Positions 17,183 to 34,808 of a stretch of DNA of 64,000 nt are shown here, one piece after another. The translations under genes and the position numbers were made by a program. A model generated the notes under the pieces. That model worked only from the letters and a program-made list of their open reading frames with translations, ran no database searches and was not told the origin of the DNA. The first letter of the stretch is position 1. Every line of letters starts with the position of its first letter. This DNA is from Alphaproteobacteria bacterium (GTDB taxonomy: Bacteria; Pseudomonadota; Alphaproteobacteria; Micropepsales; Micropepsaceae): NCBI GenBank assembly GCA_025350465.1, contig JANXXU010000006.1, positions 62,001 to 126,000 on the forward strand, read 5' to 3'.

Positions 17183-17230
17183 CTTGCGCTCGAGACTCAC
17201 GGGATCGCCGGCAATTTCGGTCGATAATGT

Positions 17231-17282: not shown

Positions 17283-17318
17283 TCATTTCTATCTGGAATT
17301 TCAAATCGCCCTCGGCTG

Positions 17319-18269: not shown

Positions 18270-18355
18270 TTTTCGCTACCCTCAGTCGAATACCCATGCT
18301 TGGGCTTAATTCAAGACCAGACTCCAGCGGCGATTTCCAGCCGGCGCCAGCCCGG

Positions 18356-18886: not shown

Positions 18887-18910
18887 GATGCAAATCCTCC
18901 GCTTTCGAGC

Positions 18911-19453: not shown

Positions 19454-19602
19454 CCTATCGCTCTCGCTAGAAAAGTCCCTCGCGGAAGCCCGGCCGCAAC
19501 GCCACGCGGGCCTCTCTTAGAACGCGTCGCAGAACTCGAGATGGGTTTTGGCGTCGGCCCATCAGTCCCAAACGCCCCGGTCCTTCAGGCAGCAAGCACG
19601 GG

Positions 19603-20200: not shown

Positions 20201-20577
20201 GTGCCCGAGGCAATCGATTTTTGGTGCACTCCATACTGGATCTGGCCGTCGTACTGGCAAATACCTTCCGTTTGCCTGCGCACGATGGTTAGGCGGCCCC
20301 TTGTCGTCGGGTCGTAGGAAATCATCAATAATAGATCTGCTTCGATGCGTTGATGGCCCATTATCCAAGCCCCGCGAAAGTCACCATCTTGCAGGTTGGG
20401 ATGCTTGGGCCACCAAAGTCCGTGCCAACCGCCCTCTTGCTCAGACCAGGCGACCATCAACTCGGGATGGAAGGGATTATCAATTGGACATGCGCCCTTT
20501 TGCTGGGCCAACGCCGACACCGGTATGAGCACCATCAGGCCGATTGCGCTAAATATCTTCCGATAAGCAATGGACAC
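20119..20577 (-). CDS. Hypothetical exported protein
   Basis: 152 aa with a signal peptide (residues 1-26, hydrophobic IFSAIGLMVLIPVSALA, cleavage before QQ). The mature part is rich in Trp and contains three Cys (GACPIDN, GICQYDG, YWCAWH), suggesting a disulfide-stabilised beta protein. I chose GTG 20577 because GGGAGGTGG precedes it and it starts at the signal peptide; the frame extends to 20664. Function unknown. Confidence 0.6.
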   Translation of the reverse strand: MSIAYRKIFSAIGLMVLIPVSALAQQKGACPIDNPFHPELMVAWSEQEGGWHGLWWPKHPNLQDGDFRGAWIMGHQRIEADLLLMISYDPTTRGRLTIVRRQTEGICQYDGQIQYGVHQKSIASGTYWCAWHRAPLPWHATIVDFPRPRPPC

Positions 20578-21267
20578 CGCCACCTCCCAAAAGCCCGCGC
20601 GCCAGCCGAGCTTAACATTCCGGTGCCGTTCGTGCAGAACTCTCGTGCAGAATCCGAGCATCAACCCGATCCAAGCCGGGAAATCGTGCTGTGCGACACC
20701 ACGAGCGTCACGGCAATTGGCTCGCCACTTCCCCTGCGAACGCGCGGGGGAAGAAAGAAACTGCGCGCGTTCCGCGCAGCTCTCTTCCGCAGAAGTGCCT
20801 TCGCAAAGGCGGATCGCGATTCACTTCTTCGCGCACCGTATCAATCGAGTCACATGTTCCGGCAATCTGCGGCCGCGCACACCGTGCGAACATCTTCGCG
20901 CGCGCTCTTCATCCGATCTCTCAACTGCGCTGAGCAAGCAAAAGTTACCAAAGCGTTAATTTGAGTCCGCACGCCGCGAAAGTTGTTGCGTTGACTTCGC
21001 GTGTTCTCGGTCGCTTGCTAGGGCTGCGGTGTTAACCACGCGTATAGGTCTTCGCGCTTGGCGCCCCTATGATTCTTGCGAGCGAAAGTGATTCTCGCGG
21101 AAGGGGAATCAAAGCGCGAGGAAGCGGGGGCTTAGCGGCGGTTTTTTGAGGCCAGGCGACGGCGCATTCTATGCGCTTGCGTACCTCTCGAAGCTTTCGC
21201 CTTTCCCGTTCTCCATCGCGCGTCGGCGTTGCGTCGCCGGTCCTTGAACGTGGGTGCGGGGTTACGG
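20578..21267. other. 690-bp gap before divL
   Basis: No convincing gene on either strand. It contains the double-hairpin repeat at 20728-20779, a short direct repeat TCGTGCAGAA (20629 and 20642) and, upstream of divL, a TTGACT at 20991 followed 18 bp later by TTGCTA, a weak sigma-70-like promoter. The rest shows nothing I can name. Confidence 0.5.
20728..20779. repeat. Double-hairpin repeat, second copy
   Basis: CTTCCCCTGCG-AAC-GCGCGGGGGAAG, imperfect, followed by CTGCGCG-CGTTC-CGCGCAG, a perfect 7-bp stem. Same two-hairpin layout as 13103-13142, including the GGAACG/CGTTCC loop of the second hairpin. Confidence 0.55.
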
Positions 21268-23643
21268 GTGGAGTTGTCGAGCGACATTGCAACGGTGCTG
21301 CCGTTCGGCATTACGCTGGGCGCAATCGCTCTGGCGGCCTCGCTCGCCTGTGTCGTCCTCTTCGTTCGCATCCACACCGATCGCTTATTGCGTCGTGCGA
21401 CGATCAAGACCACGGCGGCCGAAGCCAAATATCAGCGCGAAGAAGCGATCGTCTCGTCCGAGCCGGGCGCGCTCTATGTCTGGAATAGCGGCGGTTCTGA
21501 GCCGCTGACGCGCTCGGGCGCCGCCAATCTGTTGGCCGGCTGCTTGGACGCGGAGGAGGGCGAGACCCTCAAAGGCGCGATCGGCGCGCTCTCCGCGCAA
21601 GGCTCGCTCTTCTCCCTCACCGTGCCCGGCGCCGATGGCCGCGTCTTTCAGGCCTACGGCAAGCCGGCCGCGGGCCAAGCCGCCGTTTGGCTGCGCGACG
21701 TCACGCCCGACACCGAGGCCGCCTATTCGCTGTCGGTCCGCCTTTCGGGCACCGAGGCCGAAAGCGCCCAGCTTGGCGATTTGCTCGACGCCTCGCCGAT
21801 GCCGGTTTGGCGCCGCGGGCCCGATTTGGATCTCGTTTGGGTCAACCGCGCTTATGCCGCCGCCGTCGAAGCCGCGACCGGGCAAGACGCGGTCACCGAG
21901 CAAATCGAACTCGACCGCACCAGCCGCGATCTCGCCGAGCGTGCGCTCGAACTTGGGAGCGCCCAGCACGAGAAGCATTACGTCGTCGTCGGCGGTCATC
22001 GCCGCGCCCTCGACATCCACGCCGTGCCGCTGGGCGAGGGCGTGGCCTCCTATGCGATCGACGTCACCGACGTCGACGAAGCCAAGCGCCTGCTCCAGCA
22101 GCACATCGACGCGCATGAGGAAACGCTCGACCGCTTGCCGGCCGCCGTCGCGATTTTCGGCGCCGATCAGCGTCTGCAGTTTTCCAACAAGGCGTACGCG
22201 CGGCTCTGGGATCTCGAAGAGAAATGGTTGGACACGCATCCCTCCGACGGCGACATCCTGGAGAAGCTGCGTGAGTTCGCGCGGCTGCCCGAACAGCGCG
22301 ACTTCGGTTCGTGGAAGCGTGAGCGCCTGGCGCTCTACACGACGGTCGTTGAGAGCCATGAGGAACTTTGGCATCTGCCGCGCGGGCTGACGTTGCGCGT
22401 CAATTGTCAGCCCCATCCCTTCGGCGGCTTGATCTTCGTTTTCGCCGACGTCACCGATCAATTGTTGCTGGAGCGCAGCCTCAATCAGCTGGCCAACGTC
22501 CAGCGCACGACGCTCGACCATTTGGCCGAAGGCGTCGCGGTCTTCGGCAGCGACGGCCGCCTGAAACTCTTCAACACGGCGTTCGCCGAGATGTGGGGCA
22601 TCGAACCGCAAGCCCTGATCGATCGCCCGCGCTTTGCCGATATCTTCGCGCTCTGCCGCCGCTTGCTGCCCGACGAAGCGCATTGGTCGATGGTGACGAC
22701 ATTGATCACGGGCTCGAGCGCGACCGAGCGTCGTTCCGGCAAGGGCACGCTCGACTGCGCCAACGACAAGATCTTCTCGTTCAACGCCGCGCCCTTGCCC
22801 GACGGCTCGTTGTTGCTGAGCTACCGCGACGTCACCGACACCGCGATGAAGGAAAAGGCGCTCGAGGAGCGCAACGCCGCGCTCCTCGCCGCCGACAAGC
22901 TCAAGTCCGATTTCATCTCGAACGTCTCGTACCAACTGCGCACGCCGCTGAATTCGATCATGGGTTTTGCCGATTTGATGCAGCACGGCATCGCCGGCAA
23001 AATCAGCGACAAGCAAAAAGGCTATCTCGCCGACATCATGACCGCGTCCAAGACGCTCGAGACGCTGGTCAACGACATCCTCGATCTGGCGCTCATCGAA
23101 GCCGGCCGCATGGAGCTCGACCTCTCGCAAGTCGAGATCGGCGATGTCTTGACGGCAGTGCGCCCATTGGTCGAAGAGCGCGCGCGCAAGGCCAGGGTCG
23201 ACATTGTTTGCGACAACAATCCGGCGTCCGGCCACCTCTTCGCCGACCAGAAGCGCTTGCTGCAGATCTGTTACAATTTGTTGATCAACGCGATCGAGCA
23301 CACGCCGCCCAACGGCACCATCACCTACGGCGCCGACGCCATCGGCGGCGAGATGCGCCTCTACGTCAACGACACCGGCGTCGGCATCCCGCCCGAATAT
23401 CAGCCCGTCGCTTTCGAGCGTTTCGAGTCGACGACCAAATCGAAGGACTCCCGCCGCGCCGGCTTAGGCCTCGCGCTGGTGCGCAGCTTCGTCGAAATGC
23501 ACGGCGGCTGGGTCGAGCTCGACTCGACCGTCGGCAAAGGCACCCGTGTGATCTGCCACTTGCCCCGCGAGCAGCGCGCCAAGCTTCCCGCCGAAGCGGC
23601 CGGCAAAGCCGTTCGCCCACTCAAACGCACCGCAGTGAAATAA
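21268..23643 (+). CDS. divL: DivL-type PAS-domain kinase homologue with Tyr in place of the phospho-His
   Basis: Membrane-anchored kinase homologue that in Caulobacter acts with DivK and CckA to set CtrA activity and cell polarity. About 791 aa: TM near residues 10-33, three or four PAS-like repeats (about 160-500, e.g. LLDASPMPVWRRGP and LDRLPAAVAIFGADQR), then DHp and HATPase_c. The H-box reads FISNVSYQLRTPLNSIMGF with Tyr at 22930-22932 (residue 555), the hallmark of DivL (Tyr550 in Caulobacter). N-box NLLINAIEHTP, VNDTGVGIPPE and GLGLALVRSFVEMHGG are intact. The start is uncertain: TTG 21229, GTG 21250 or GTG 21268; the last has the best purine-rich upstream stretch. Confidence 0.88.
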   Translation: MELSSDIATVLPFGITLGAIALAASLACVVLFVRIHTDRLLRRATIKTTAAEAKYQREEAIVSSEPGALYVWNSGGSEPLTRSGAANLLAGCLDAEEGETLKGAIGALSAQGSLFSLTVPGADGRVFQAYGKPAAGQAAVWLRDVTPDTEAAYSLSVRLSGTEAESAQLGDLLDASPMPVWRRGPDLDLVWVNRAYAAAVEAATGQDAVTEQIELDRTSRDLAERALELGSAQHEKHYVVVGGHRRALDIHAVPLGEGVASYAIDVTDVDEAKRLLQQHIDAHEETLDRLPAAVAIFGADQRLQFSNKAYARLWDLEEKWLDTHPSDGDILEKLREFARLPEQRDFGSWKRERLALYTTVVESHEELWHLPRGLTLRVNCQPHPFGGLIFVFADVTDQLLLERSLNQLANVQRTTLDHLAEGVAVFGSDGRLKLFNTAFAEMWGIEPQALIDRPRFADIFALCRRLLPDEAHWSMVTTLITGSSATERRSGKGTLDCANDKIFSFNAAPLPDGSLLLSYRDVTDTAMKEKALEERNAALLAADKLKSDFISNVSYQLRTPLNSIMGFADLMQHGIAGKISDKQKGYLADIMTASKTLETLVNDILDLALIEAGRMELDLSQVEIGDVLTAVRPLVEERARKARVDIVCDNNPASGHLFADQKRLLQICYNLLINAIEHTPPNGTITYGADAIGGEMRLYVNDTGVGIPPEYQPVAFERFESTTKSKDSRRAGLGLALVRSFVEMHGGWVELDSTVGKGTRVICHLPREQRAKLPAEAAGKAVRPLKRTAVK

Positions 23644-23661
23644 CCGCGCGGGCATCGCCGG

Positions 23662-24822
23662 TCAGGCGTTCGATTTCCAAACCATTTCCGACGCTTGAGA
23701 ACCGGTTTGGACGGTGCGGCAATTTTCGAATTCCTGAAACACTTCGATGAGCTCGGGGCCCTCCATGGCACCGAGCGCGCCGCCTTTGAATTTGAACTCC
23801 CAAAAGCTCGACACATGACTGACCGTGCCTGCGTTCTCGCCGATCTCGAGAAACATCGCGGGCGACTTGAGCAGGAAATCCTTGAACGCCGCGGGCCGCT
23901 TTTCGACCGTCATGGTCTGGTAGGCGGCGTCATAGATGCTGAGCAGGGTGTACACCGTCTTCATTTTCTCTCGGATCATGGCCGTCGTCCGCGTCCGCAT
24001 GTTTTTGACCGTCGTGGCGGACGTCGCGTCGCAATTGGCAAAGCCGATGCGTTGCATCTGCTCCACGGTGGTCGCGGCCTTCGCCAAAATCCTTTTGAAC
24101 ATCCATTTGTAATAGAGAAATCCCTTCCAGCAAAAGACGCCGTCCGCCCATTCGGCGCCGTCCAGACCCAGCGCCGCCCGCAACGGCGCCAAGCTGTCGG
24201 CATTCTCGTCGGACATGATTTTGGACGCCATCTGTCCGCACAGTTCTTTGGCGGCCTCGCTTTTCGAATTGCCCGCGAAGGCCATCTCGACGAGGCCGTT
24301 CACCTGCTCGCTGACGAAAGCCACCATGCTGTTCAAATCGGCGTCGGAAATCTGGAAATAGCACCGCGCCGGATCGCGGCTCAACAATCTCAGCTGCTCG
24401 CGCAGCAAAAACGGATCGAGCGACGGAAGTTTGTCGAGCGCGACCAGGAGCTCGGCGTCCTTTTGCAACTCGGCTTCATCCTTATAGCCGCCGGCCAGAT
24501 CTCTCAGCGCGCCTTCGAAATTTTTCTGGCCGACGAAGATATTCGTGCCCCCGATGCCCAGATCGTCCTTGGCGAACGGCAAAATCACCTTCGTCACGCT
24601 GGGCTTGAGCGATTGGAAAAGATAGTGGTCCGCGCCGCGCAGCGCGTGCTTCATGATCAAGGCGCGGTTCAAGGCTTTGCTGAAGAAAAACGGTTTGCCG
24701 TTGAAGGGCTCGGTCGCGCCGAAGCGCTCGTGCACCACGTGCAAATTGAGGATGCGCGACGTCGATCCCGATTTTTTGATCAAGGCAAGGCTGCGAAACG
24801 TCACCGGCCACCACCGATCCAC
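23662..24822 (-). CDS. Hypothetical protein, 386 aa
   Basis: Not recognised. Soluble, mostly alpha-helical by composition. It begins with a mixed segment (SGSTSRILNLHVVHERFG), a middle helical part (SEQVNGLVEMAFAGNSKSEAA) with CWKGFLYYKWMFKRILAKA, and a basic Met/Thr-rich helix (VKNMRTRTTAMIREKMKTVY). No signal peptide. GTG 24822 is the first start; GTG 24804 is an alternative with a better upstream GGTGG. Converges on divL with an 18-bp gap. Confidence 0.65.
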   Translation of the reverse strand: MDRWWPVTFRSLALIKKSGSTSRILNLHVVHERFGATEPFNGKPFFFSKALNRALIMKHALRGADHYLFQSLKPSVTKVILPFAKDDLGIGGTNIFVGQKNFEGALRDLAGGYKDEAELQKDAELLVALDKLPSLDPFLLREQLRLLSRDPARCYFQISDADLNSMVAFVSEQVNGLVEMAFAGNSKSEAAKELCGQMASKIMSDENADSLAPLRAALGLDGAEWADGVFCWKGFLYYKWMFKRILAKAATTVEQMQRIGFANCDATSATTVKNMRTRTTAMIREKMKTVYTLLSIYDAAYQTMTVEKRPAAFKDFLLKSPAMFLEIGENAGTVSHVSSFWEFKFKGGALGAMEGPELIEVFQEFENCRTVQTGSQASEMVWKSNA

Positions 24823-24941
24823 TCGACGAAACTCGTCGCACGACGATAACCGGCCCCTGTTAATTTTGGCTGTCGGGCTCGGCGGTGCAAATGGTTAGTT
24901 TCGCCTTTACGGCGGTGCTGACAACGCACCGGAAGTCTGGG

Positions 24942-25706
24942 TCACGAACGGAGCCACGGCCGCTTGGCAAGCACTCTTCCGATGACAACGCCGATCGCGA
25001 GCGATGCCAACCACTGCGGCAGAGTCCAAACATGGTAGCCCCAGTCGTAGCCGGCACCCCACACCACGCGCCGCCAGAGTTCTTCATAGATGCCGGTCAG
25101 CAGGTAACTGCTCAAAAACACGATGCCCAGGCTGACGAACATTCGTCGCCTGAGCCACTGAGCGGCCAGCGCGAAACCGATCAACGAGCCCAGATGCATG
25201 GGCCACCGGAAGTCCACCCACTTGATGAATTCGACATCGTACGAATCCAGACCGTACGACAGCGCCGACCCGACGGCGTAGAGCACGCAGACTGCCGCTA
25301 TGCTCTTGACGATGGACCGCACGTCCAAACCGCCGGCTGTCGCCTCGGTGTTTTCGGTCTTCGGCGCGGCTGCCGTTTCACGCCGGCGGCCATAGCGGCC
25401 CAACCGGCCCGACGGATTGTCGATCGCTGTTTTCAAGCGCAGTCCCAGCCAGAAAACGATGAAGGCGCTTGGGATCGCGTCGAGGAAAAAGAAATAGGGC
25501 ATGTCCATGAGGGTCAGGAAGGGGAGGTCGGCGAACGGAACGAGCTTCGGTATGAAATTGATACTAAGCGCCACGGCCGACCACACGAGCGGACCTGCCA
25601 AGGCATAAAGGAGCGCCGCACCCAAATGTCGCTTCGCCATGACGGCCACGGCAAAGAACCAGAGGGCCGAAACGATCCAGCTGATCCATAGGACTGGATG
25701 CGGCAT
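24942..25706 (-). CDS. Multi-pass integral membrane protein
   Basis: 254 aa, about seven hydrophobic segments (e.g. LWISWIVSALWFFAVAVMA at the N-terminus, LLYALAGPLVWSAVALSI, SIVKSIAAVCVLYAVGSAL and FVSLGIVFLSSYLLTGIY) with a charged cytoplasmic loop near residues 100-130. I cannot assign a family. ATG 25706 follows GGAGTGTGTC, and the frame upstream to 25862 lacks membrane-protein character. Possibly related in role to the membrane protein at 26083-26853, from which a repeat element separates it. Confidence 0.65.
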   Translation of the reverse strand: MPHPVLWISWIVSALWFFAVAVMAKRHLGAALLYALAGPLVWSAVALSINFIPKLVPFADLPFLTLMDMPYFFFLDAIPSAFIVFWLGLRLKTAIDNPSGRLGRYGRRRETAAAPKTENTEATAGGLDVRSIVKSIAAVCVLYAVGSALSYGLDSYDVEFIKWVDFRWPMHLGSLIGFALAAQWLRRRMFVSLGIVFLSSYLLTGIYEELWRRVVWGAGYDWGYHVWTLPQWLASLAIGVVIGRVLAKRPWLRS

Positions 25707-25870
25707 GACACACTCCAAAAATGGCGCAGACCTCTGACAGGCAAGGCCGCGACTGTATGTCCTGGAGGAACAGTAGGTGACCGTTCTCATCGAAGGCAAT
25801 AGAGCCGGCCGAACGCGCTCGGCAGCACGGTCCTGTAATCGGCGCGTCCGCTTGCGAAGCACCCCTCGTT

Positions 25871-26036
25871 GTCATCCCGGAGTTAGGCGAGCCCAACTGC
25901 GTCAGCAGTTGGCTTAAGCGAGCCTTACATCCGGGACCCAGTGATCGTAGCGCTCGGCGCATCGTTCCTGGCTCCCGGTGCTAAGCGTCGCAACACGGAT
26001 CGCTATGCGATCCGGCTCCGCTAAGACCGGGATGAC
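25871..26036. repeat. 166-bp intergenic palindromic element
   Basis: Bounded by a perfect 10-bp inverted repeat GTCATCCCGG / CCGGGATGAC, with inner small hairpins (AACTGC-GTCA-GCAGTT). Elements with these ends are common between genes in Alphaproteobacteria (from memory). It fills most of the 376-bp gap 25707-26082; the remainder shows nothing else. Confidence 0.75.
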
Positions 26037-26082
26037 AAGGAGGAGTTACCAACGCCCGTATCGGCGAGAAGGTCGTCGAGGT

Positions 26083-26853
26083 TCATGCCTCAGGATCGCG
26101 CAGCGCAATCCTCACGGCAAGCCGAGGAGAGAGCATCGGTATCATGACGACCGCGCTCGCGGCGGCGACGGCGTAGATCAGGCTGAGAAAATAGCCCTCA
26201 AAGCCGATCGCTTCGCCGGCCGCGTAGATAATTTTCGGCAACGGCGGCCACGCCAGAAACAAGAGATTCTCCGCCGCATTTGCGATCCAATAAAAACAGC
26301 CGCAAACGGCGACGGTCGAACAGAATCTGACGAGGCCGGGACGGCGCGTGGCATCGAGCGCCGCGGCAAGCGTCCACGCGCAGACAAAAATGTTGCCGAA
26401 GAATAGGTCGAGGTACGCGCGCTCGCTGTTGCCGCCATAGGGCAGGAACAAGATTTCGCGCCCGAGGGCGAGGATGGGCGTAATGGCAACCACGGCCGAC
26501 GACAGGAACGCTTGCTCGTCGTCGCTCGAAGCGAGTTCGAGAGCGCGCAACCAAAGGAAGAAGGTCGCCATATCCCAGATCGCCACAAACCCGTATGACG
26601 CGTCCACGCGGGCGTACACTTCTTGGATATTCACCAAAACAAGATCGGCGCACAGGCACGCCAAAATGAGAGGCAACAGAACCTGGCGCGCACCCGCCGC
26701 GTGAGACCATGCCCTGTGCAACGACTGCAACGAGAGGGTCAGTACTGCAAAATAGAGTCCGAAGATGACGTGGCTCGGCCAAGCCGCCAGATCCGCGCCC
26801 TCAACGCCGGCGAGTTCCAGACGCCCATATCTGAATCCCATGGCAATGAGCAA
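26083..26853 (-). CDS. Multi-pass integral membrane protein
   Basis: 256 aa with about seven membrane segments (VIFGLYFAVLTLSLQSL, VLLPLILACLCADLVLV, FCSTVAVCGCFYWIANAAE, FLSLIYAVAAASAVVMIPML). No family recognised. The first available start is TTG 26853 (ATG 26841 next), but the hydrophobic first helix appears to continue upstream (VIAKLIPAAIA) for about a dozen codons to a TAG, with no ATG/GTG/TTG, so the original start may have been lost. Confidence 0.6.
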   Translation of the reverse strand: MLIAMGFRYGRLELAGVEGADLAAWPSHVIFGLYFAVLTLSLQSLHRAWSHAAGARQVLLPLILACLCADLVLVNIQEVYARVDASYGFVAIWDMATFFLWLRALELASSDDEQAFLSSAVVAITPILALGREILFLPYGGNSERAYLDLFFGNIFVCAWTLAAALDATRRPGLVRFCSTVAVCGCFYWIANAAENLLFLAWPPLPKIIYAAGEAIGFEGYFLSLIYAVAAASAVVMIPMLSPRLAVRIALRDPEA

Positions 26854-26935
26854 TGCGATCGCAGCGGGAATGAGCTTGGCGATGACGTTCGTCCCCTATT
26901 GTGTGCAATCACCCTACCGCGGCGCCGCGCCAATG

Positions 26936-27406
26936 CTAGTGGCGCGGTTCGATCGTCACCTCGCGCGTGACCGCGACATGCGGCGCTTTGTCGGCCGGGA
27001 GACCGGGCACCTCGACCGCCAAATCGAGAGCGTCGGCCATCGTTGCCGCGCGGCGCAAGGCGCCGGAGATGGTGTCGATCTCCACGCTGAAGGCGTAGCA
27101 CTCGACGCCGCGTAGCATCACTTCGGGCGAACCCTTGTCCGCGTGGTGCACGATTCGGGCGTCGTTGGGATGAGCTAGACCAAGGCCTCCTGCAGCCGCG
27201 TCAATCTCGGACAGTTCGCGTTCTGTCGTCGAGTTGATATCATGAGCCGCAACCTCGGGGGCCGAGCATTCAAAGTCAGCGTCCGGGCGTCCAGCATTGC
27301 CGAGGCCAAGAAGCTCGCCCAGAACGGAGATGGATGCGAAGCACGGCCAGGCCGATTCGCCGGCCGGATGGTCCTGAACCTGGTCAAAGTCGAAGTTTGA
27401 CTCCAA
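26936..27406 (-). CDS. Hypothetical protein, doubtful
   Basis: 156 aa, not recognised. The C-terminal half (VMLRGVECYAFSVEIDTI, then AATMADALDLAVEVPGL) reads like a folded alpha/beta domain; the N-terminal half is Gly/Ala/Asp-rich and less convincing. TTG start with no ribosome site. It could be a real gene starting further in or a decayed one. Confidence 0.4.
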   Translation of the reverse strand: MESNFDFDQVQDHPAGESAWPCFASISVLGELLGLGNAGRPDADFECSAPEVAAHDINSTTERELSEIDAAAGGLGLAHPNDARIVHHADKGSPEVMLRGVECYAFSVEIDTISGALRRAATMADALDLAVEVPGLPADKAPHVAVTREVTIEPRH

Positions 27407-27418
27407 GCAGATGGAGAA

Positions 27419-27757
27419 ATGACGGTGCCACGCTATCGAGTTACCATTCGTCCCGAGGGCGGAAGTAAAATAGCAAATGCTTTGGTTAGCCTCGCATTCT
27501 TGCCCTCCGCCTTGTTGGGTTTGGTCGTGGTCCTGTTCAGCCCAGCATTTGGAATGCTGATCGGGGCTATCGCCATCATCGTGGGCATAGGCCTTTTTAT
27601 CGACGTCCGGTTGGGCTGGGGCCTTGTATGGTTTGTCGGAGGGATTCTACTATTCAACTTCTGCTTAAGCAGAAGTGACGCTCCAGGCGCTTCCAACGCT
27701 CTTTTTTTCGGCAGCCATTATGGCGAACCCATGCCGATTGTCTCTAGCCCACACTAA
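27419..27757 (+). CDS. Small predicted membrane protein
   Basis: 112 aa, two to three hydrophobic helices (LVSLAFLPSALLGLVVVLF, GMLIGAIAIIVGIGLFI, GWGLVWFVGGILLFNF) with a basic N-terminus (VPRYRVTIRPEGGSK) that should face the cytoplasm. Lower GC than its neighbours. Family unknown. Confidence 0.55.
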   Translation: MTVPRYRVTIRPEGGSKIANALVSLAFLPSALLGLVVVLFSPAFGMLIGAIAIIVGIGLFIDVRLGWGLVWFVGGILLFNFCLSRSDAPGASNALFFGSHYGEPMPIVSSPH

Positions 27758-27804
27758 GCTCGGGTGCCATCGCCGAGGCAATCCGCCTTTAATCAGGTTA
27801 ATCA

Positions 27805-27865
27805 GGGGACAGCATACCTATTCGCGCGGTCCAGCAACACGGACCGTAATGGGTATCCTGTCGCC
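27805..27865. repeat. GGTATC-TGTC hairpin repeat, fullest copy
   Basis: Imperfect 61-bp palindrome: outer arms GGGGACAGCATACCTATT and AATGGGTATCCTGTCGCC pair at 15 of 18 positions, and an inner perfect CGGTCC/GGACCG stem sits on an 8-nt loop. A second copy of its right half is at 29389-29446. The structure resembles REP sequences linked to RAYT transposases, but no such transposase is in the window. Confidence 0.8.
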
Positions 27866-27891
27866 GAATTTTTCTGAGTTTTCTGAAACTC

Positions 27892-28245
27892 TCAAAACTT
27901 CTCGATCTTCAGTTTGATGCCGTCCGGCACATGGTTGAGCCGCACGTCCGCGCCGTAGACGACGACGATCGTCGCCCCTTCCGTTTCCGTCTTGAAGCCG
28001 CCGAGGATGTTCGCCGAAGCGTTGATCGCTTGGCAGACCTGCGCCGCGGTGGCGCCCGGTTGCAGAGTCTCTATGAAACCGGAGCCCTTGGGCGGGCCGT
28101 TCGTGACGAAGATGGGGCTCGCTTTCGTCACCGTCCCGCCCTCGCAGGTGAAGACGACGCCCGGCCCCTTCCCATGCGCGGCTGCGGGCAGCGCGCCCAG
28201 CAAAATGGCGCACGAAATCGCGGCAAGGCAATTGAGAAGCTTCAT
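27892..28245 (-). CDS. Hypothetical exported protein
   Basis: 117 aa, clear signal peptide (NCLAAISCAILLGALPAAAH, cleavage before HGKG). The mature domain is small, Gly/Thr-rich, with two Cys (FTCEGG and QVCQAI) that could form a disulfide. Family unknown. Last of three minus-strand genes for exported proteins with 14- to 15-bp spacing, likely one operon. Confidence 0.65.
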   Translation of the reverse strand: MKLLNCLAAISCAILLGALPAAAHGKGPGVVFTCEGGTVTKASPIFVTNGPPKGSGFIETLQPGATAAQVCQAINASANILGGFKTETEGATIVVVYGADVRLNHVPDGIKLKIEKF

Positions 28246-28259
28246 GGCAGTCCCTTTCT

Positions 28260-28643
28260 CTATCGGATCGCAATGGTCAGCGTGAACGGACCGAGCGAGT
28301 GGTCGGCCATCATGTTAGGACTGAGCTCCAAGGTATATGTGCCGGTCGACGTGAGCGCGATGGTGTTCGGCAGGCCGGGCCCATCCGATTGCCGCGAACC
28401 TGCAAATATCATGCGCACGTCTGCTCCCTCCTCGCTCCACGTCAGCGTTTGCCCGGCGCGCGCGCGAAACGAATAGGCGCAGCAGTCGGCGTTTTGCACC
28501 ATGCGGCCCTTGAGCGTGACGGCGTGCGCGCCGTGCGCAAAATGAATCGGGATCGGACAGGCCCGCGCGCCCGCCACGCAGTGTGCCGGTGCGTTACCCA
28601 CCAAAGAGAGCGCGACCCAGGCTATGAATTCGGCGCCGGACAT
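28260..28643 (-). CDS. Exported protein with PPC-like beta-sandwich
   Basis: 127 aa. N-terminal signal-like segment (FIAWVALSLVGNAPAHC), then a domain resembling bacterial pre-peptidase C-terminal (PPC) folds: SFRARAGQTLTWSEEGADV, then STGTYTLELSPN and FTLTIAI. PPC domains usually accompany secreted enzymes; here it is alone. Middle gene of the three-gene exported cassette. A CC pair (ADCCAY) is unusual. Confidence 0.65.
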   Translation of the reverse strand: MSGAEFIAWVALSLVGNAPAHCVAGARACPIPIHFAHGAHAVTLKGRMVQNADCCAYSFRARAGQTLTWSEEGADVRMIFAGSRQSDGPGLPNTIALTSTGTYTLELSPNMMADHSLGPFTLTIAIR

Positions 28644-28658
28644 CGTGCCTTCCCTGCG

Positions 28659-29216
28659 TTAGGACGGCACGTAAAACGTCGTCGTGTCGACGACGACGTT
28701 GCAAAACCCGTCGAAGGCCTTGTCGTCGCCCCAAAACACGATGCGCTTGATGCCCGGCCCGGTCAGCGTGAACTGGCGCGCGGGCACGTCGCTATAGCTG
28801 CGGATCTCGCCCTCGTTGACCGTGCTGAGCGTTGCGCCCTTCTCGTCTTGCGCGGTTGCCGTCCACACTGGATGGGTCACCCCGCTCGGCCCCGCGACCA
28901 GACGCGAGCGGTTGAACTCGAATTTGATACCGGCGTTGTCGAACTCCATGGTGTAGTGGCAGGGATGGCCGCCCTGCTGCACCAAGACCATGTTGCCGCG
29001 CGCCCCCGCCAGCGCTTGCCCGCCGTAGACATAGCGCGAATCCATCAGCACCACCGGTTGATCGGCCGGCGCATACACGGTGACTCCGATCGATCGAAGC
29101 GCGGTATTGAGCGCGTCGCCTTTGATCCCCTCGCGTGGAAAGTCATCATCGGCGCGCGCCATCGAAACGGCGGCGAGTGCGAGCGCGAGACCCGCGACCG
29201 CCAAACGAATATTCAT
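28659..29216 (-). CDS. Hypothetical exported protein
   Basis: 185 aa from ATG 29216, chosen because it begins the signal peptide IRLAVAGLALALAAVSMARA; the frame upstream to 29474 is not protein-like. The mature part is beta-rich (VVLMDSRYVYGGQALAG, MVLVQQGGHPCHYTMEF, IKRIVFWGDDKAFDGFCNVV) with two Cys. First gene of the exported cassette. Confidence 0.65.
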   Translation of the reverse strand: MNIRLAVAGLALALAAVSMARADDDFPREGIKGDALNTALRSIGVTVYAPADQPVVLMDSRYVYGGQALAGARGNMVLVQQGGHPCHYTMEFDNAGIKFEFNRSRLVAGPSGVTHPVWTATAQDEKGATLSTVNEGEIRSYSDVPARQFTLTGPGIKRIVFWGDDKAFDGFCNVVVDTTTFYVPS

Positions 29217-29388
29217 GTGTCGTCGTTCTTTTGAGCGCGAGGACCCTGGGCCATCTCGCATGCGATAGCAATTGACGCTCCGGCCACCTCGACGATTCCC
29301 CCGCGGCGAGAAAATCGGTCGCTTTCGTAATCTCCTTGTCGCGTTGGTAAGCTGAAGTGCGCGGACACATGCCCGGCCCGAGAGCAGT

Positions 29389-29446
29389 CGCACGGTCCAA
29401 CGAAGCGGAGCGCAATAGGTATCCTGTCGCCGTATTTTTTTGAGTT
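29389..29446. repeat. GGTATC-TGTC repeat, right-half copy
   Basis: About 80 percent identical to 27824-27881 over 58 bp, including GGTATCCTGTCGCCG followed by an AT-rich tail and TGAGTT. In the same orientation as the other copy, so the two form direct repeats around the three exported-protein genes. Confidence 0.7.
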
Positions 29447-29474
29447 GCGCGGGTGCCGATGCGATGTGCGTCAA

Positions 29475-30200
29475 TTAAGGATTGGGCCACACACCGGCAG
29501 ATAGGACAAACATTGGGGGGCCAAAATCGGTCGAACTATGGAAACCTGCACTACAGTCATGAGTATCAAAGAAATACATTCGCTGAACGTAGGTTAGCGT
29601 TTCTGAACCGGAGATTTGGCCGGATCCGGCCAGATAGTCGAACGGTAAGTAGGCCATTTTATCGGCCTTGGTTTCAGTTCTTGTTTGACATCCGGCGAGG
29701 CCACCATGAACTGTAAATTTATTTGCCAACTTCGTATAAACGGTATCGCCGATCTTCAACGGTGGTTTTTTGCGCAGCCAATCGATCAAGTCCTTGATTA
29801 CTTGAACATCGACAGGTCCGACTATTCCAACAACCAGAGCCGAGATTGAGCCTGGTTGCCATTTGACGGCGAAATGACCCGCACGAATGCCTTCGGAAAA
29901 ACCGGCCGGATTGAACACATAGAGCGTTTTGTTGGAAGACGCGAAAAAGGCATCCAACTGATGTTGCGTTGCCAGGTTTGTGAGAACGTCTTTTGCGTCT
30001 GGAATATTTTGAGTCGGTCGCGTCGGTCCCCGGCTGTACGTCGGCGCTGCTTCGGCTCCTGATGCCGCCGAGATGAATGCACATAGGATGAGGGACCCAA
30101 CGAGACCTACAGCCGAAGCGATTCTCGAAAGGTCCCGACTAAGACGCAGTCTGAGCGATTGAGGTTGCTGCACATTTGCCCCCACGGGAAGTGCCACCAT
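29475..30200 (-). CDS. Hypothetical exported protein
   Basis: 241 aa, not recognised. Long N-terminal region then a signal or anchor segment (IASAVGLVGSLILCAFISAA, about residues 27-46), and a mature domain with LYVFNPAGFSEGIRAGHFAV and two Cys (LAGCQTR, THDCSAG). Arg-rich n-region. Less GC-rich than core genes. Confidence 0.6.
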   Translation of the reverse strand: MVALPVGANVQQPQSLRLRLSRDLSRIASAVGLVGSLILCAFISAASGAEAAPTYSRGPTRPTQNIPDAKDVLTNLATQHQLDAFFASSNKTLYVFNPAGFSEGIRAGHFAVKWQPGSISALVVGIVGPVDVQVIKDLIDWLRKKPPLKIGDTVYTKLANKFTVHGGLAGCQTRTETKADKMAYLPFDYLAGSGQISGSETLTYVQRMYFFDTHDCSAGFHSSTDFGPPMFVLSAGVWPNP

Positions 30201-30266
30201 CTCAACAATGCGCCCAAACCAGAAAATTTGCCAGCATGCGTTTTGGCTGGGTCTGGCTCAGGATAG

Positions 30267-31142
30267 TCAATTCTCGTTGAGTCCGTGCGGGGCGTGCGTG
30301 TGCAAGCGAGCCTTCCACGAGCCCTCGATCTCAATGACGTCCTTCGAGTCCATATCCGGCGAAACGCGCTGCAAAATGCTGAATCGGAAATGGCGCGCGT
30401 CGCGCTTGCGAAGAAGATGATTCCCGCCATGGCCCACGGCCGCGTAGTTCAACCATCTGCCGAGCAAATTGTTGGACCCGTACGCTGAGCCCACGTAGCC
30501 TCGCGCATCCGAGGTATCGAAAATATAGTAGATAGCGCGCCATTCGGAGAGTTTGGCCTTCCAACTCGCCGGCAGAATTCGAAGTTCGTCCCAAGTCAAA
30601 TTTATTTCATCCCAATTGAGAGCGCGCGCGTCGAGGACGCTTTCCTCATGAATCGCGAGGACCGGGATGATGTTGTTGTGCGCGCGGCGCCACCACGCTC
30701 TCTCCGGGGGCGGCCAGCCGACGACCAACTTTCCCTTCCATTGCTCGTAGAAGTCGGTGCGCGCGAGATCAAACCAAAGCACCGAGGTCCGATCGTCTTC
30801 CTCGGCGAAACCTCGCATGCCGAACGGCTTGAGTTCGGCGTAGGCCGGGATTTTCCAGAACTCTTCGCGCGTCACCGTTCTCGACGCGCCAATTGAATAG
30901 AGGCCGATAAACAATGCCTTGCCGGGCTCGTGCCCGATGAACGATGCGACGTGCTTGGCGCCGCGCATGGCATTTTCGACGCGGCTGCCATGCGTTTGCT
31001 GATAGGCATTGAAGAGCTCCGGTCTTTCCGCCGCGAGCCACGGCAACACTTTTCTCAGTTCGGGCTCGTTTGGTCGATGCCGAAACACGATCACTTCACG
31101 CGCGCCAACGCCCTTGTCAGCGAGTAGGTCGTTCAGGTTCAT
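30267..31142 (-). CDS. GIY-YIG nuclease-domain protein
   Basis: 291 aa. The C-terminal GIY-YIG domain shows IYYIFDTSDARGYVG (204-218), the catalytic Arg in LLGRWLNYA (229), a candidate metal-binding Glu in VIEIEGSWKARLHT (271/273) and a GLNEN end. The N-terminal 200 aa form a separate domain of unknown function (e.g. KHVASFIGHEPGKALFIGLY). Likely a DNA endonuclease; a role in repair or in defence against foreign DNA is inferred from context. ATG start; 83 bp from the PIN-like gene upstream, same strand. Confidence 0.8.
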   Translation of the reverse strand: MNLNDLLADKGVGAREVIVFRHRPNEPELRKVLPWLAAERPELFNAYQQTHGSRVENAMRGAKHVASFIGHEPGKALFIGLYSIGASRTVTREEFWKIPAYAELKPFGMRGFAEEDDRTSVLWFDLARTDFYEQWKGKLVVGWPPPERAWWRRAHNNIIPVLAIHEESVLDARALNWDEINLTWDELRILPASWKAKLSEWRAIYYIFDTSDARGYVGSAYGSNNLLGRWLNYAAVGHGGNHLLRKRDARHFRFSILQRVSPDMDSKDVIEIEGSWKARLHTHAPHGLNEN

Positions 31143-31225
31143 GTTTTACCGCCGGGTCTGGAAAATAAGGGGATGCTTTGCCGCTTAAACACGACAGCGG
31201 TGCCCTATTGGGATCATGCCACCCG

Positions 31226-32119
31226 TCACTGGCGATTGTCCGGGTATCCGTCTTTGATGCTCGCGGGGCTCGCCGAAGCCTCAAGCGCCTCGAGAAAGCG
31301 GATTACACCTTGCCGGCGAGCAGAGAAGACCGCCGCCGTTCGAATTGTGAGTCCTAGCTCCGTGAACCTGCGTTTCATCCGTTCGTGCATAGCTTCCCAC
31401 TTTCCATCGAGCAACACGAAATCACAGTAGACGATGGAGAGGGTGGCATGATGGATGTCGCCGGCATCGTTTCGATCAATGCTGAAAGTCTCATCCAGAA
31501 ACGCGGGGCGTAACAACCCCTGCATGACGGCCAGTGTCGGCACATGAGCCGGATGGGCGGCGAAGTTCTTCACTTGACCGACCATCTCCGGGTCGCGCCT
31601 TAGCTCATTAATGCGGTCTGCAAGGGCCTGATTCGACTCGTGCCAGATAGCGCCAAGTCTCTCGCGGTTTTTGGCAATAGCCTCGATGATGTTGGCGAGC
31701 GTAAAGGGTTGGAAGTCGTCGGTACGGTCGCGTCCGACCGCCACAAGCAGCTCCATGTCCGGTGGTGCCTTCAGACGAATCTTGATGTCCCGCAGTTGCT
31801 TTTCCTGGTTGATCGCCTGTTGCACGTCGAACATTGCGAAGTAGACGTTCGGGAGCACGGCTTCGAACAACCTAGCCGTCTCGCGTGCGTGTCGTGCATC
31901 CGTCGGCCCGGTGATCTCGGCGAAGTTCGTGTGCGCCACGACAAGTGCACCACCACTCGATTTAAGCGCGCGGACGAAGCGCCGGCCCTCTTCCTCACTG
32001 CTCGAAAAGCGCCGGATGGCCCAATGATCGAGGTACACGGTCGGAAAGTCGAATGACTGGAGGACGCGAAGCATCCCTTCATTGATTTCGAATCTAACGG
32101 GCATTCCACGGACTTTCAC
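31226..32119 (-). CDS. PIN-like nuclease-domain protein
   Basis: 297 aa. Acidic residues sit as in PIN domains: Asp31 in VYLDHWAI, Glu68 in HTNFAEITG, then DRNDAGDIHHATLSIVYCDF with Asp218/Asp221 and Asp233, and Asp238 in LLDGKWEAM. A helical insertion (90-200) separates the halves. Probably a ribonuclease; there is no antitoxin-like partner. GTG 32119 is taken as start (ATG 32104 alternative). The frame continues open upstream into the end of the preceding gene and reads protein-like, so the true start may be further 5'. Confidence 0.7.
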   Translation of the reverse strand: MKVRGMPVRFEINEGMLRVLQSFDFPTVYLDHWAIRRFSSSEEEGRRFVRALKSSGGALVVAHTNFAEITGPTDARHARETARLFEAVLPNVYFAMFDVQQAINQEKQLRDIKIRLKAPPDMELLVAVGRDRTDDFQPFTLANIIEAIAKNRERLGAIWHESNQALADRINELRRDPEMVGQVKNFAAHPAHVPTLAVMQGLLRPAFLDETFSIDRNDAGDIHHATLSIVYCDFVLLDGKWEAMHERMKRRFTELGLTIRTAAVFSARRQGVIRFLEALEASASPASIKDGYPDNRQ

Positions 32120-32169
32120 CCAAGAGAAGTAGCGCTTGCTTTCGCCGCCGCCATCATCCTCGATCGCCT

Positions 32170-33165
32170 CTAAAATGGAATCTCGTCGTCTATCGACGCT
32201 TGCGTGCCTGGAAGCGCACCCGCCGGCAAAGGCATGCTCGTCACTATGAACAGATTTACGATGTCCTCTCGATCCATGAACATGATCTGGCTGCGTTTCG
32301 TCTGATCCAACTTACTGCCAATCCAATTGCGTGCTGCTTTGGTAATCTCTCCACCTGCCACGATGAACGCGTGGTCCACCAAGACGCGTCGGCTCAGTTC
32401 AGGATCAAAAATCTCGTGACCGAGCATCATTAGAGCCTGATTGTGGATCTCCGCGACATTGGTGTTTGCGGACTTGCTCGTGCCGGCTGCATCCAACTTC
32501 CCTTTCTTGGCCTGGAGACCAAAATAGAGGACGTGCTGTGTTGGCAATGTGTATTTCATCCAAACGTCCTTGCCATATTCCAGCGCTTTGTCTTTGTGCC
32601 CCGCTGCGGTAATCCTATGGAAACCCAGCTGCCGAAACAGCGGCAACAATACTTGTTCGATCAGCTCGTCTTCAGATACCTTATCGAGATAACCCACTAG
32701 CAGATCGCGGCGCTCCAGCTCGGCTTTAGAAAACGGGCGGTGCGGATTGGCGTCGGGCGCGATAATCGTGTTCGTGCCGAGATGGCGAAGGTGGCATTGC
32801 TTGTCGTCCGCGTAAAACGCTTCGAAACCCTCTCGGTTCAGCGACGCGTTCAGCGTCTTCAATGCTGCAGTCCTTTCGTGTCCTTCGTTTGTGGCGTCCG
32901 CGGGGTCCATTAGGACTCGGATAATGTTGCAGAATGGGGTGGGCGGCGTCTGAGCGTTTGGGTGGGGCCCTTCAAGAATCTCCGCAAGTGTGTTCGCGAC
33001 CCACGCGTTGCGCGTTGAACCATCGTGCGCATAGTCTGTATCCGCGTCGCGGAAAAACCGAGTGATGTAGCTACTGCTACGATAGGGGAAGCACACTTCC
33101 TCTGGCTTCCCATTGCCGCAGATCATATCTGCAATCTCGTCGAGCGTTCGTTGGCGCCATTTCAT
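32170..33165 (-). CDS. Restriction-endonuclease-like (Mrr-type) protein with Abi-like N-terminal domain
   Basis: 331 aa. The N-terminal 65 aa (YRSSSYITRFFRDADTDY, then HDGSTRNAWV) resemble a small domain found at the start of several abortive-infection and nuclease proteins (recalled, unverified). The C-terminal 170 aa look like an Mrr-type PD-(D/E)xK nuclease: DELIEQVLLPLFRQLGF (166-182), EYGKDVWMKY with Asp200, and FGLQAKKGKL with Gln218-Ala-Lys220. A defence or DNA-cleavage role is inferred. 50 bp separate it from the PIN-like gene; divergent from 33281-33970. Confidence 0.72.
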   Translation of the reverse strand: MKWRQRTLDEIADMICGNGKPEEVCFPYRSSSYITRFFRDADTDYAHDGSTRNAWVANTLAEILEGPHPNAQTPPTPFCNIIRVLMDPADATNEGHERTAALKTLNASLNREGFEAFYADDKQCHLRHLGTNTIIAPDANPHRPFSKAELERRDLLVGYLDKVSEDELIEQVLLPLFRQLGFHRITAAGHKDKALEYGKDVWMKYTLPTQHVLYFGLQAKKGKLDAAGTSKSANTNVAEIHNQALMMLGHEIFDPELSRRVLVDHAFIVAGGEITKAARNWIGSKLDQTKRSQIMFMDREDIVNLFIVTSMPLPAGALPGTQASIDDEIPF

Positions 33166-33280
33166 CCGAATCCGCCTCCCGACCTAAGCGCAAGAAGGAC
33201 AGACTCTAAGTGCCGCTTGTCCATGAATCGCCCGGCTCATAAAGTAGGGCAAGCGGGCGCTAAGCGGCTAGTGTCTTCAG

Positions 33281-33970
33281 ATGCGACTCACACTCGAAGA
33301 AATTCGCAAACCGCGTTCCTGGGCCGAATTTCACGCCTTTTTTACCACTGTATCTGACGGGGCGCGCGCAAATGAGGAAACGAAGAGAAGGTTTCGCCTG
33401 GAAAGCGGCGCCTACAAGCGTTGGCGTGACGAGGTGATGCCGTTGATGCAATTCTGCAAAGCCGAGAGCGTGGCAGACAGCGCGACGATTCAAGTGTTTG
33501 CCGACGACGGGCCCGTTGACGCGCAGATTTCTGGATTTCCGTCCAGTGCAGACACCACCACGATAGAAATTACTCGCGCGATTGATGGTCAGGATGAGCG
33601 CCTGCGCATGGAGCTCCTCACGGAAAAAGGATCTGCGCCGGGCGCCGGCCCAATACGACGTGTGCAGCTGGACGGAGTTAAGGTGATCGAGGCAGAACTT
33701 GAATCGCAGTCGCACGAGGACATTGCATCCCGGCTCATCCGGCTAGCCAGCGATTCAATAATACAAAAGGGCGCAAAGAAATATCCGCCGAGCACCTGGC
33801 TTCTCGTAGACGCCGTTGAATTTCGAACGGCTACAGAAGAGATCCGCCCGAGAATCCATGCCGAGTGCGCGAAGGTCGCAACACAAACCTCGTTCGATCG
33901 TGTTTATCTCCTCGCTGCGTATCGCGATGAACAGGGTAGGGTTCAGGTCGCGAGTTCGCGTTTGAAATGA
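33281..33970 (+). CDS. Hypothetical protein, possible PD-(D/E)xK-like fold
   Basis: 229 aa, not assigned. GPVDAQISGF followed by TTTIEITRAIDG has the D...E-x-T spacing of some nuclease-like folds, and HEDIASRLIRLASDSIIQKG with STWLLVDAVEF fits the following helix and strand. No usual Lys in the motif, so catalytic ability is doubtful. ATG 33281; 115 bp from the divergent REase-like gene, so a shared control region is likely. Confidence 0.6.
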   Translation: MRLTLEEIRKPRSWAEFHAFFTTVSDGARANEETKRRFRLESGAYKRWRDEVMPLMQFCKAESVADSATIQVFADDGPVDAQISGFPSSADTTTIEITRAIDGQDERLRMELLTEKGSAPGAGPIRRVQLDGVKVIEAELESQSHEDIASRLIRLASDSIIQKGAKKYPPSTWLLVDAVEFRTATEEIRPRIHAECAKVATQTSFDRVYLLAAYRDEQGRVQVASSRLK

Positions 33971-34176
33971 CGCGTTGCACATCGATCTGCTCGCACGAAT
34001 TGTCCAAGGCACCTTGCGCCGTGGGCGTTTATGTTCTACATTTGTTCCGATACGCAAGAGCACGCTTCTCGCGCACCAACTCTTTGACATCGTCCATCCA
34101 ATCCCAAAGGCGGTCGCGGCCGAAAGCGCGATGTGTGCCCCGAATTGCGCGCGCAGCGGCGCTACGACACCGACGC

Positions 34177-34270
34177 TGTAACGGCAACACGCAGTTTGCA
34201 ACGGCAATGCAACGGCTGTGTAACGGCAATAGCCCAGCAATTTCAACGGTGTAACGGATGCAACGGCAAA
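34177..34270 (+). repeat. Tandem TGYAACGGC array
   Basis: Seven occurrences of AACGG on the same strand at 34180, 34200, 34211, 34222, 34245, 34253 and 34262. Three form perfect-register 11-mers (TGCAACGGCAA, TGCAACGGCTG, TGTAACGGCAA). An 11-bp period equals about one helical turn. Confidence 0.75.
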
Positions 34271-34333
34271 AGGGTGGGGTCTCATTCGCAATTCGCAACT
34301 GGCGTGCGTCTGCGAACAAGGCGGCACCCCGCC

Positions 34334-34358
34334 GCTGTAAATTTCGGTTATTTACAGC
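34334..34358. promoter_or_regulatory. Perfect 9-bp inverted repeat
   Basis: GCTGTAAAT and ATTTACAGC around a 7-nt centre TTCGGTT. AT-rich arms in GC-rich DNA suggest a protein-binding site; no U-tract follows, so a terminator is less likely. Partner unknown. Confidence 0.45.
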
Positions 34359-34406
34359 GAACAACAGCGGGCGCAGGTGCGAAGGCGCCCGGCGGTTTTC
34401 TCTTCT

Positions 34407-34435
34407 GAAGCGGGCGGGACGCCCGCGGTCCCAGG
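34407..34435. repeat. 65-bp palindromic repeat, half copy
   Basis: GAAGCGGGCGGGACGCCCGC followed by GGTCCCAGG matches the right half of the copy at 4599-4663. Lies 5 bp beyond the ferredoxin stop, again 3' of a gene. Confidence 0.7.
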
Positions 34436-34439
34436 CGGC

Positions 34440-34760
34440 CTAGTGTTGGCTCTTCGGCGTGCGCACGACGAGCCCGTCGAGCGCGTCCGACACCTTGATC
34501 TGGCAGGAGAGGCGGCTGTTCGACTCGAGCCCTTCGGCGAAGTCGAGCATCGTCTTCTCCATTTCCTGCATCGGCTCGAGCTTCTCCAGCCACGCCTTGT
34601 CCACATAGACGTGGCAGGTCGCGCAGGCGCAGGCGCCGCCGCAATCCGCGTCGATCCCCGGTATCAGGTTCTTGACCGCGCCCTCCATCACCGACATGCC
34701 GGTCTTGACCTCGACCACATGCTCTTTGCCGCTGAACTCGATGTACTTGATCTTGGCCAT
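34440..34760 (-). CDS. [2Fe-2S] ferredoxin, adrenodoxin type
   Basis: 106-aa electron carrier. The cluster ligands are in [16 protein letters not shown] plus a fourth Cys in RLSCQIKV, the vertebrate/ISC-type spacing. C-terminal LDGLVVRTP is typical. Expected to pass electrons from the reductase encoded immediately upstream (34809-36029), possibly to a P450 or to Fe-S assembly. ATG 34760 chosen over the adjacent ATG 34763 on ribosome-site spacing (AGGA). Confidence 0.93.
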
Positions 34761-34808
34761 CATTCGTCCTTGGAAGTCGCAAAGCGGTCGCGCATTGGGG
34801 GCAAAGCC

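Follow-up and report, generated by a model that had tools for sequence, protein, structure and literature searches.

The proteins described here, termed REase-like for their resemblance to restriction endonucleases (REases), form a widespread single-gene family in which a short N-terminal module resembling AbiJ-NTD3 precedes a predicted nuclease. The member at the center of this analysis is encoded within the window, a 64,000-nucleotide stretch of DNA from an alphaproteobacterium of the Micropepsaceae (GenBank assembly GCA_025350465.1, contig JANXXU010000006.1, positions 62,001 to 126,000 of the forward strand). The initial annotation had placed this gene with three neighbors in a single candidate defense locus. 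What stands of that proposal is the presence of nuclease-like genes in a defense-type setting, but not the idea of a four-gene or two-gene system. The reading preferred here, to which we assign a probability of roughly two in three, is that the locus holds independent defense-type genes gathered in a hotspot, among them an REase-like gene whose product would be a self-contained sensor-nuclease. The family shares its sensor-like module with a candidate defense protein and, weakly, with an abortive-infection kinase. All four genes are present as open frames at the positions and on the strands first given for them:

30267-31142, minus strand: GIY-YIG protein of 291 amino acids, a full-length relative of PADLOC UzuA (Uzume), with the GIY-YIG region at about residues 204-278
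31226-32119, minus strand: orphan PIN-like protein of 297 amino acids, with a GTG start; the PIN label comes from motif reading only
32170-33165, minus strand: REase-like protein of 331 amino acids, with an AbiJ-NTD3-like module at about residues 5-63, a middle part of about 80 residues and a PD-(D/E)xK nuclease at about residues 145-318
33281-33970, plus strand: orphan protein of 229 amino acids, divergent from the REase-like gene

Architecture of the REase-like protein

The protein was studied through an alignment of 58 sequences, namely 57 from the 80 fetched loci and the window protein itself; the alignment begins at residue 2 of the window protein, whose numbering (alignment number plus one) is used throughout. 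An AlphaFold 2 (AF2) model made from these sequences has a mean predicted local distance difference test score (pLDDT) of 85.4 and a predicted template modeling score (pTM) of 0.55. In the VIA structure comparison against the PDB, the nearest folds are AspBHI (Z 10.1, root-mean-square deviation 3.8, 136 aligned residues, model residues 144-317) and MspJI (Z 8.7, deviation 3.7, 137 aligned, model residues 144-315), with Shedu, FokI and HamA ranking lower. All 50 of the matches listed begin at model residue 142 or beyond. The fold assignment rests on this comparison, since Foldseek against the PDB returned weak TM-scores and one match below an E-value (E) of 0.001, to FokI, with a TM-score of 0.28. 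A viral fold search with the model gave nothing below E 0.001, and the PDB contains no sequence relative of the protein at E<=1.

The C-terminal half is predicted to be a PD-(D/E)xK nuclease that is nearest to AspBHI and MspJI. The description of the protein as REase-like is upheld by the model, in which this half adopts a restriction-endonuclease fold. The D...QxK core that had been read from the sequence, including its lysine 220, is likewise confirmed, as D200, Q218 and K220 are invariant in 58/58 aligned sequences. MspJI-type enzymes use a D and a QxK motif. The Pfam family Mrr_cat is matched weakly, by three of the 58 members at E<=0.1 (best 0.01).

The HDGSTR motif reported at the other end of the protein is found at residues 47-52, and H47, G49, T51, R52 and W55 of this region are invariant in every one of the 58 sequences. 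The suggestion that the N-terminus is Abi-like is supported better by sequence shared with two other proteins than by profiles, where the support is weak: the Pfam family AbiJ_NTD3 (in the literature this name was found as AbiJ-NTD3, and not in the form AbiJ_NTD3) is matched by six of the 58 members at E<=0.1, with a best value of 0.0061, and the window protein is not among them. The two other proteins, each of 337 amino acids and encoded in class genomes (L139:5481-6491 and L140:5419-6429), carry the same module, with HEGSTR or HDGSTR, ahead of a different C-terminus. Their N-terminal identity to the window protein is 46% over 62 residues for L139 and 43% over 53 for L140. Their C-terminal parts match PADLOC PDC-S32 (E 1.3e-28 and 1.5e-29, respectively), and neither protein matches a Pfam family at E<=0.01. 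The 58 aligned family members match PADLOC models only weakly, the best being Stk2, which nine of them match at E<=0.1; in one of eight members scanned (L052), positions 3-62 of the Stk2 profile match residues 5-63 (E 7.3e-5, 19.7 bits).

Taken together, the PDC-S32 fusions and the weak Stk2 match suggest that one short module is combined with no fewer than two kinds of C-terminal part, and perhaps with a third. Such sharing across C-termini favors a role as signal sensor over one as reader of DNA modification, and the link to Stk2, weak as it is, leans towards a sensor of infection. The module occurs in three of 172 class genomes (the window's own, G123 and G127), and with the L139 module as the query 41 plasmid records match. 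No sequence relative of the module lies below E 0.7 in the PDB.

Distribution and genomic surroundings of the family

A pattern search of the genome collection returned 134 relatives of the REase-like protein. The best 80 of these, at 62-78% identity, come by record title from the Alpha-, Beta- and Gammaproteobacteria, Actinomycetota, Bacteroidota, Cyanobacteria and others. Within the window's own class, the family profile matches 11 of 385 genomes, nearly at full length in five (own included) and partially in the rest. The gene is found on 46 plasmid records, including plasmids of E. coli and Klebsiella; 36 of the matches cover at least 80% of the query, and 24 of the 46 plasmids are conjugative. 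It is also carried by 16 IMG/VR contigs and is absent from all of 50,697 phage records (E 0.001). Of 5426 E. coli genomes, 191 have a copy, at 191 chromosomal and two plasmid places; the one chromosomal context inspected (L087:12001-12981) is a degenerate lambdoid-type prophage flanked by rspB and ydfJ.

The ratio of nonsynonymous to synonymous substitution rates (dN/dS) lies between 0.053 and 0.105 in six of nine sequence pairs and is undefined in the other three, where dS is saturated; these values point to purifying selection. Clustering of the open reading frames (ORFs) at the 80 loci revealed no true neighbor in more than four of them, as the four commonest clusters besides that of the gene itself (58, 10, 10 and 7 loci) overlap that gene. 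The REase-like family is solitary, mobile and strongly conserved. Throughout the plasmid and E. coli matches listed, its members are annotated as "hypothetical protein". Six family protein accessions were not found in the papers searched, and PADLOC-DB 2.0 has no model of the family's own.

The company kept by these genes was assessed from 150 immediately adjacent ORFs, called by a simple script instead of a gene finder, in which 128 PADLOC models were matched at 1e-10. The models listed include PDC-S28, SduA, HamA, the specificity and restriction subunits of type I systems, SspH, Aga_REase-PNTD and a CARF regulator, together with the generic models mad3, mad8 and DinG, and no model matches more than two of the 150 ORFs. 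As a control, eight models were matched in 149 ORFs (150 of 188 were drawn and one of 2,894 amino acids was excluded) contributed by 17 of 18 arbitrarily chosen 12-kb segments of class genomes; these were mad3 and mad8 (five ORFs each), SspA, DndA, three PDC-S31 models and an ATPase model. The excess over the control offers good, if not exact, support for what appears to be a defense setting. With Pfam, integrases are seen in three and PIN_4 in two of the 150 adjacent ORFs.

Among the 46 plasmid records, the 12 contexts inspected feature vapBC, Abi and AbiEii-type genes, methyltransferase and SNF2 genes, and an ABC-three-component system accompanied by a helicase, as well as catabolic and other ordinary genes. 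Upstream of the REase-like gene, at a distance of 139-158 bp, all five enterobacterial plasmids inspected (L083, L084, L154, L155 and L156) carry the vapBC pair. Beyond these, a VapC-like match occurs at L134 alone (38% identity) among the searched loci. We rejected vapBC as a general partner of the REase-like gene and take the association as inheritance by descent.

The other genes of the locus

No fetched locus outside the window's own genome repeats the gene set, and the proposed four-gene unit is not borne out. Recurrence was sought both for the pair at 31226-33165 and for all four genes, and the partners never occur together elsewhere, as far as could be searched. None of the 80 closest REase-like relatives has a PIN-like, UzuA or divergent gene nearby (tblastn E 1e-4), with 73 of these loci extending at least 1.2 kb on the side expected for the PIN-like gene, and none of nine UzuA neighborhoods contains the other three genes. 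Across 188 fetched loci outside the own genome, counted as loci and not genomes and with some overlap (for example L091 and L125), the REase-like gene is present in 116, the GIY-YIG gene in 20 and both in none. In these 188 loci, neither the PIN-like nor the divergent protein has a relative spanning more than 150 residues. A mixture of this kind has precedent, as GIY-YIG (URI), stand-alone REase and PIN genes have been reported together at the edges of Dnd modification systems (PMC10853773).

The earlier identification of the GIY-YIG protein is secured by a full-length match to PADLOC UzuA (PDLC03973; E 1.5e-74), in which residues 1-291 of the protein align with positions 3-278 of the 278 in the profile, and, judged on this match, the gene belongs to the known system Uzume. 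UzuA is a single-gene system. The Pfam GIY-YIG family scores 17.3 bits on the window protein, under its cut-off of 22.6, and in ten aligned sequences the columns with Y, G, R, E and N in the C-terminal part are invariant. The catalytic residues of the GIY-YIG motif are Y, R, E and N, and residues of this catalytic type are thus retained. Among 385 class genomes, 19 (own included) have UzuA matches at E<=0.001, some of them partial or weak. In nine UzuA neighborhoods no neighbor cluster is common to more than two, and a copy on a Bradyrhizobium plasmid is surrounded by transposases and introns. Two neighbor clusters are common to the UzuA loci L127 and L131, one of them also being present at the REase-like locus L135, and a single cluster common to L128 and L130 is present too at the REase-like locus L137. 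In the Bacillus cereus group, Uzume is mostly plasmid-borne (PMC11811056), and a review table places it among systems of unknown mechanism (PMC12926258). Literature naming GIY-YIG together with Uzume was not found.

The remaining two genes are orphans. A PIN fold had been proposed for 31226-32119 and found no backing, as no PIN profile or PIN chain was matched and the matches obtained were weak and unrelated. An alignment by hhalign to a VapC alignment gave a probability of 0.4%, and a single-sequence structure model, with a pLDDT of 35.5, was not used. The motifs VYLD31 and NFAE and a late acidic cluster are compatible with a putative PIN domain, which is unproven. Because the fold is unproven, the proposed joint action on RNA and DNA loses its support. 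Relatives of the PIN-like protein are absent from 72,556 plasmid records and from the phage records; five pattern matches in viral contigs yielded none that was confirmed, and among 100 relatives the gene is found in its own genome only. In samples of 385 class and 349 phylum genomes, the matches are the own genome and one weak match, in G380 (E 6.9e-4), that reaches E 4e-7 when this single locus is searched alone. The G380 match was rejected as a relative: it lies on the opposite strand of an 868-residue ORF, with 30/97 columns aligned and 18 gaps. The divergent 229-residue protein has no relatives in plasmids, phages or viral contigs, and among 190 class genomes only its own has it; the degenerate nuclease fold proposed for this protein is unproven.

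The insert and its flanks

The four genes lie in DNA that is particular to this strain, the main features of which are as follows:

21229-23643, plus strand: histidine kinase (Pfam HisKA and HATPase_c), left flank of the insert
23569-34409: strain-specific insert of about 10.8 kb, its limits taken from alignment to siblings, with the four genes as its right end
29475-30200, minus strand: orphan ORF of 241 amino acids within the insert, adjoining the GIY-YIG gene, with no Pfam family
34440-34763, minus strand: ferredoxin, right flank of the insert

The ferredoxin is matched in all 11 genomes of the genus, closely (79-100%, over nearly the whole protein) in nine. Eight sibling stretches were aligned to the window, with alignment segments of more than 150 bases counted. 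The distance from kinase to ferredoxin is 53-157 bp in four of the eight (L143, L145, L148 and L149) against 10.8 kb in the window. Two others have different DNA at this site, of about 1.3 kb in L144 and about 6.3 kb in L142, the latter including an IS1595-type transposase and a DUF3800-like protein that falls just under the Pfam cut-off; the last two are uninformative, as L146 has no kinase match ahead of the ferredoxin and the L147 stretch ends too early. These sibling junctions without the insert indicate a hotspot at which this strain carries an insert of its own, with the four genes at its right end.

The composition of the region fits this origin. G+C content is 0.55-0.58 over 30-34 kb against 0.60-0.67 across most of the window. 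For each of the four genes, the called frame has the best codon score of the six frames and all scores are positive, at 0.081 for the REase-like gene, 0.144 for the PIN-like gene, 0.213 for UzuA and 0.043, the weakest, for the divergent gene; six housekeeping genes used for comparison score 0.31-0.37, but these belonged to the training set. Low G+C and low codon scores are together compatible with acquired genes. The PIN-like gene starts 50 bp past the REase-like stop codon and a further gap of 83 bp leads to the GIY-YIG gene. Promoter and terminator scans of 29400-34450 gave fewer sites than shuffled sequences (0 vs 2.2 and 3 vs 6.2, respectively) and are uninformative about transcription units. 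The 241-residue ORF is found only in its own genome among the 11 of the genus, its codon score of -0.122 reflects a codon use unlike that of the genome, and nothing was found that ties it to any system.

Two further features were observed nearby. The left half of the insert contains an imperfect direct repeat of 59 nucleotides (83%), at 27822-27880 and 29388-29446, the copies of which flank small ORFs that look secreted by eye. A second variable interval, at 13081-21400, spans about 8 kb in the window against 0.9-3.1 kb in six siblings (L142-L145, L148 and L149), and within it G+C falls to 0.51 at 16-18 kb.

Proposed mode of action and competing explanations

The arrangement would be explained if the insert, with the four genes at its right end, was acquired horizontally and lies in a chromosomal hotspot where independent genes accumulate. 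The Uzume GIY-YIG protein and the stand-alone REase-like protein each probably work alone. The latter would act as sensor and effector in one polypeptide. Its AbiJ-NTD3-like module may keep the C-terminal PD-(D/E)xK nuclease silent until phage infection or foreign DNA is sensed, upon which the nuclease would be released and could cut the DNA of the invader, the host or both. The REase-like protein probably acts in phage defense; antiphage activity, autoinhibition, the trigger and the choice between an abortive and a restriction outcome are what we infer. A bolder version can be put forward only tentatively, in which the module of about 60 residues is a general infection sensor that also stands ahead of the Stk2 kinase and PDC-S32-type effectors, making the family a solitary immune nuclease that crosses phyla. 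If this were true, the low dN/dS would imply a trigger that phages cannot easily change, such as a host process or a DNA structure and not the surface of a phage protein.

Several observations weigh against the sensor-nuclease interpretation and its defense setting. The 128 and eight matches count models and not ORFs, with similar models repeatedly matching one ORF, and the control ORFs come from the window's own class alone, unmatched by phylum. The generic models mad3 and mad8 match in both sets alike, and several immediate neighbors are, by Pfam, ordinary metabolic genes. Concerning the protein itself, the AF2 model has a pTM of 0.55 and low confidence at residues 188-198, AbiJ_NTD3 and Mrr_cat are matched only weakly (6/58 and 3/58), and the Stk2 match is weak and confined to a minority of members. 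The window protein reaches no Pfam cut-off, the only matches being GATase_4 (0.071) and GhoS (0.17), taken as chance, and it matches no PADLOC model at E<=1.

An unlikely alternative casts the REase-like protein as a modification-dependent restriction enzyme of type IV. Recognition of a modified base or of a DNA structure would fall to its N-terminal and middle parts, and its MspJI-like nuclease would cut incoming modified DNA directly, without killing the cell. The nearest solved folds are AspBHI, modification-dependent according to its entry, and MspJI; no neighbor, and hence no methylase, recurs in more than four of the 80 loci, and strong purifying selection would suit an invariant chemical ligand. 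Against this, the fold matches, starting from residue 142, cover the nuclease half only, and the same module also precedes the PDC-S32-type part and occurs, weakly, in the Stk2 profile, which is more readily accommodated by a sensor. That the protein instead serves mobile elements, in the competition or maintenance of plasmids and prophages and not in host defense, appears quite improbable. Conjugative plasmids, viral contigs and an E. coli prophage all carry the gene, but it is also found beside restriction-modification, Shedu and Hachiman genes, and no recurring neighbor is fit to be an antitoxin. As competition among elements also counts as defense, this explanation and the preferred one overlap, and the rival readings in general overlap in part.

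The proposal nearest to the original one, that the REase-like and PIN-like genes, perhaps with the GIY-YIG gene, constitute a real but rare co-transcribed system, is very improbable. The genes share a strand at the short spacings given above, the lack of relatives of the PIN-like gene in the collections is compatible with rarity, and a PIN toxin pair, vapBC, accompanies the REase-like gene on the five enterobacterial plasmids. The partners are nevertheless missing from all 80 close REase-like relatives and all nine UzuA neighborhoods. Furthermore, vapC is on the other side of the REase-like gene and is unlike the PIN-like protein, elsewhere a VapC-like match is seen at the single searched locus L134, and PIN_4 is found in just two of the 150 adjacent ORFs. 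Independent genes, with the REase-like protein as a probable sensor-nuclease, remain the preferred reading.

Comparison with known systems

The GIY-YIG protein is, by sequence, a member of Uzume, with no difference found. The likeness of Stk2 to the REase-like protein is limited to the start of the Stk2 profile, which weakly matches the N-terminus of the family (L052), and the effector is a protein kinase in Stk2 but a predicted nuclease in the REase-like protein. The Stk2 kinase has an abortive-infection role. With MspJI and AspBHI (PDB 4f0q and 4oc8) the protein has in common a C-terminal PD-(D/E)xK domain (Z 8.7-10.1) and the D...QxK core, and it differs from them in an N-terminal module that recurs in PDC-S32-type proteins and has a weak counterpart in Stk2. 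It differs from AbiJ sensu stricto in having no HEPN RNase domain, its C-terminus being modeled as a PD-(D/E)xK nuclease.

A close parallel is provided by the AbiJ-NTD fusions, in which an AbiJ-NTD module likewise occupies the N-terminus and the enzyme behind it can be exchanged. Five such modules, AbiJ-NTD1 to 5, were described in 2013 as fused to REase, TIR, kinase and other domains, and were proposed to serve as sensor or antitoxin, sensing invaders and restraining the toxin (PMC3710099). Mrr-type REases with NTD1 or NTD2 and a DUF2726 REase with NTD3 are listed in that work. The combination found here, of an NTD3-like module with an MspJI/Mrr-type nuclease, is not named in the parts of the paper that treat these fusions. 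An REase family that also occurs in AbiJ systems has been mentioned elsewhere (PMC10853773), and E. coli defense proteins distantly similar to REases, one of which carries a Mrr-family domain at its N-terminus, have been reported in an account whose relevant sections do not mention AbiJ (PMC9519451). The design of an AbiJ-NTD plus an enzyme is known in outline, and the architecture of the REase-like protein falls under the idea of 2013 (PMC3710099). The window protein reaches no Pfam cut-off and matches no PADLOC model, and the six accessions are absent from the papers searched. The REase-like family appears to be a new version of this design, and its module offers a route to learning what AbiJ-NTD-type domains detect.

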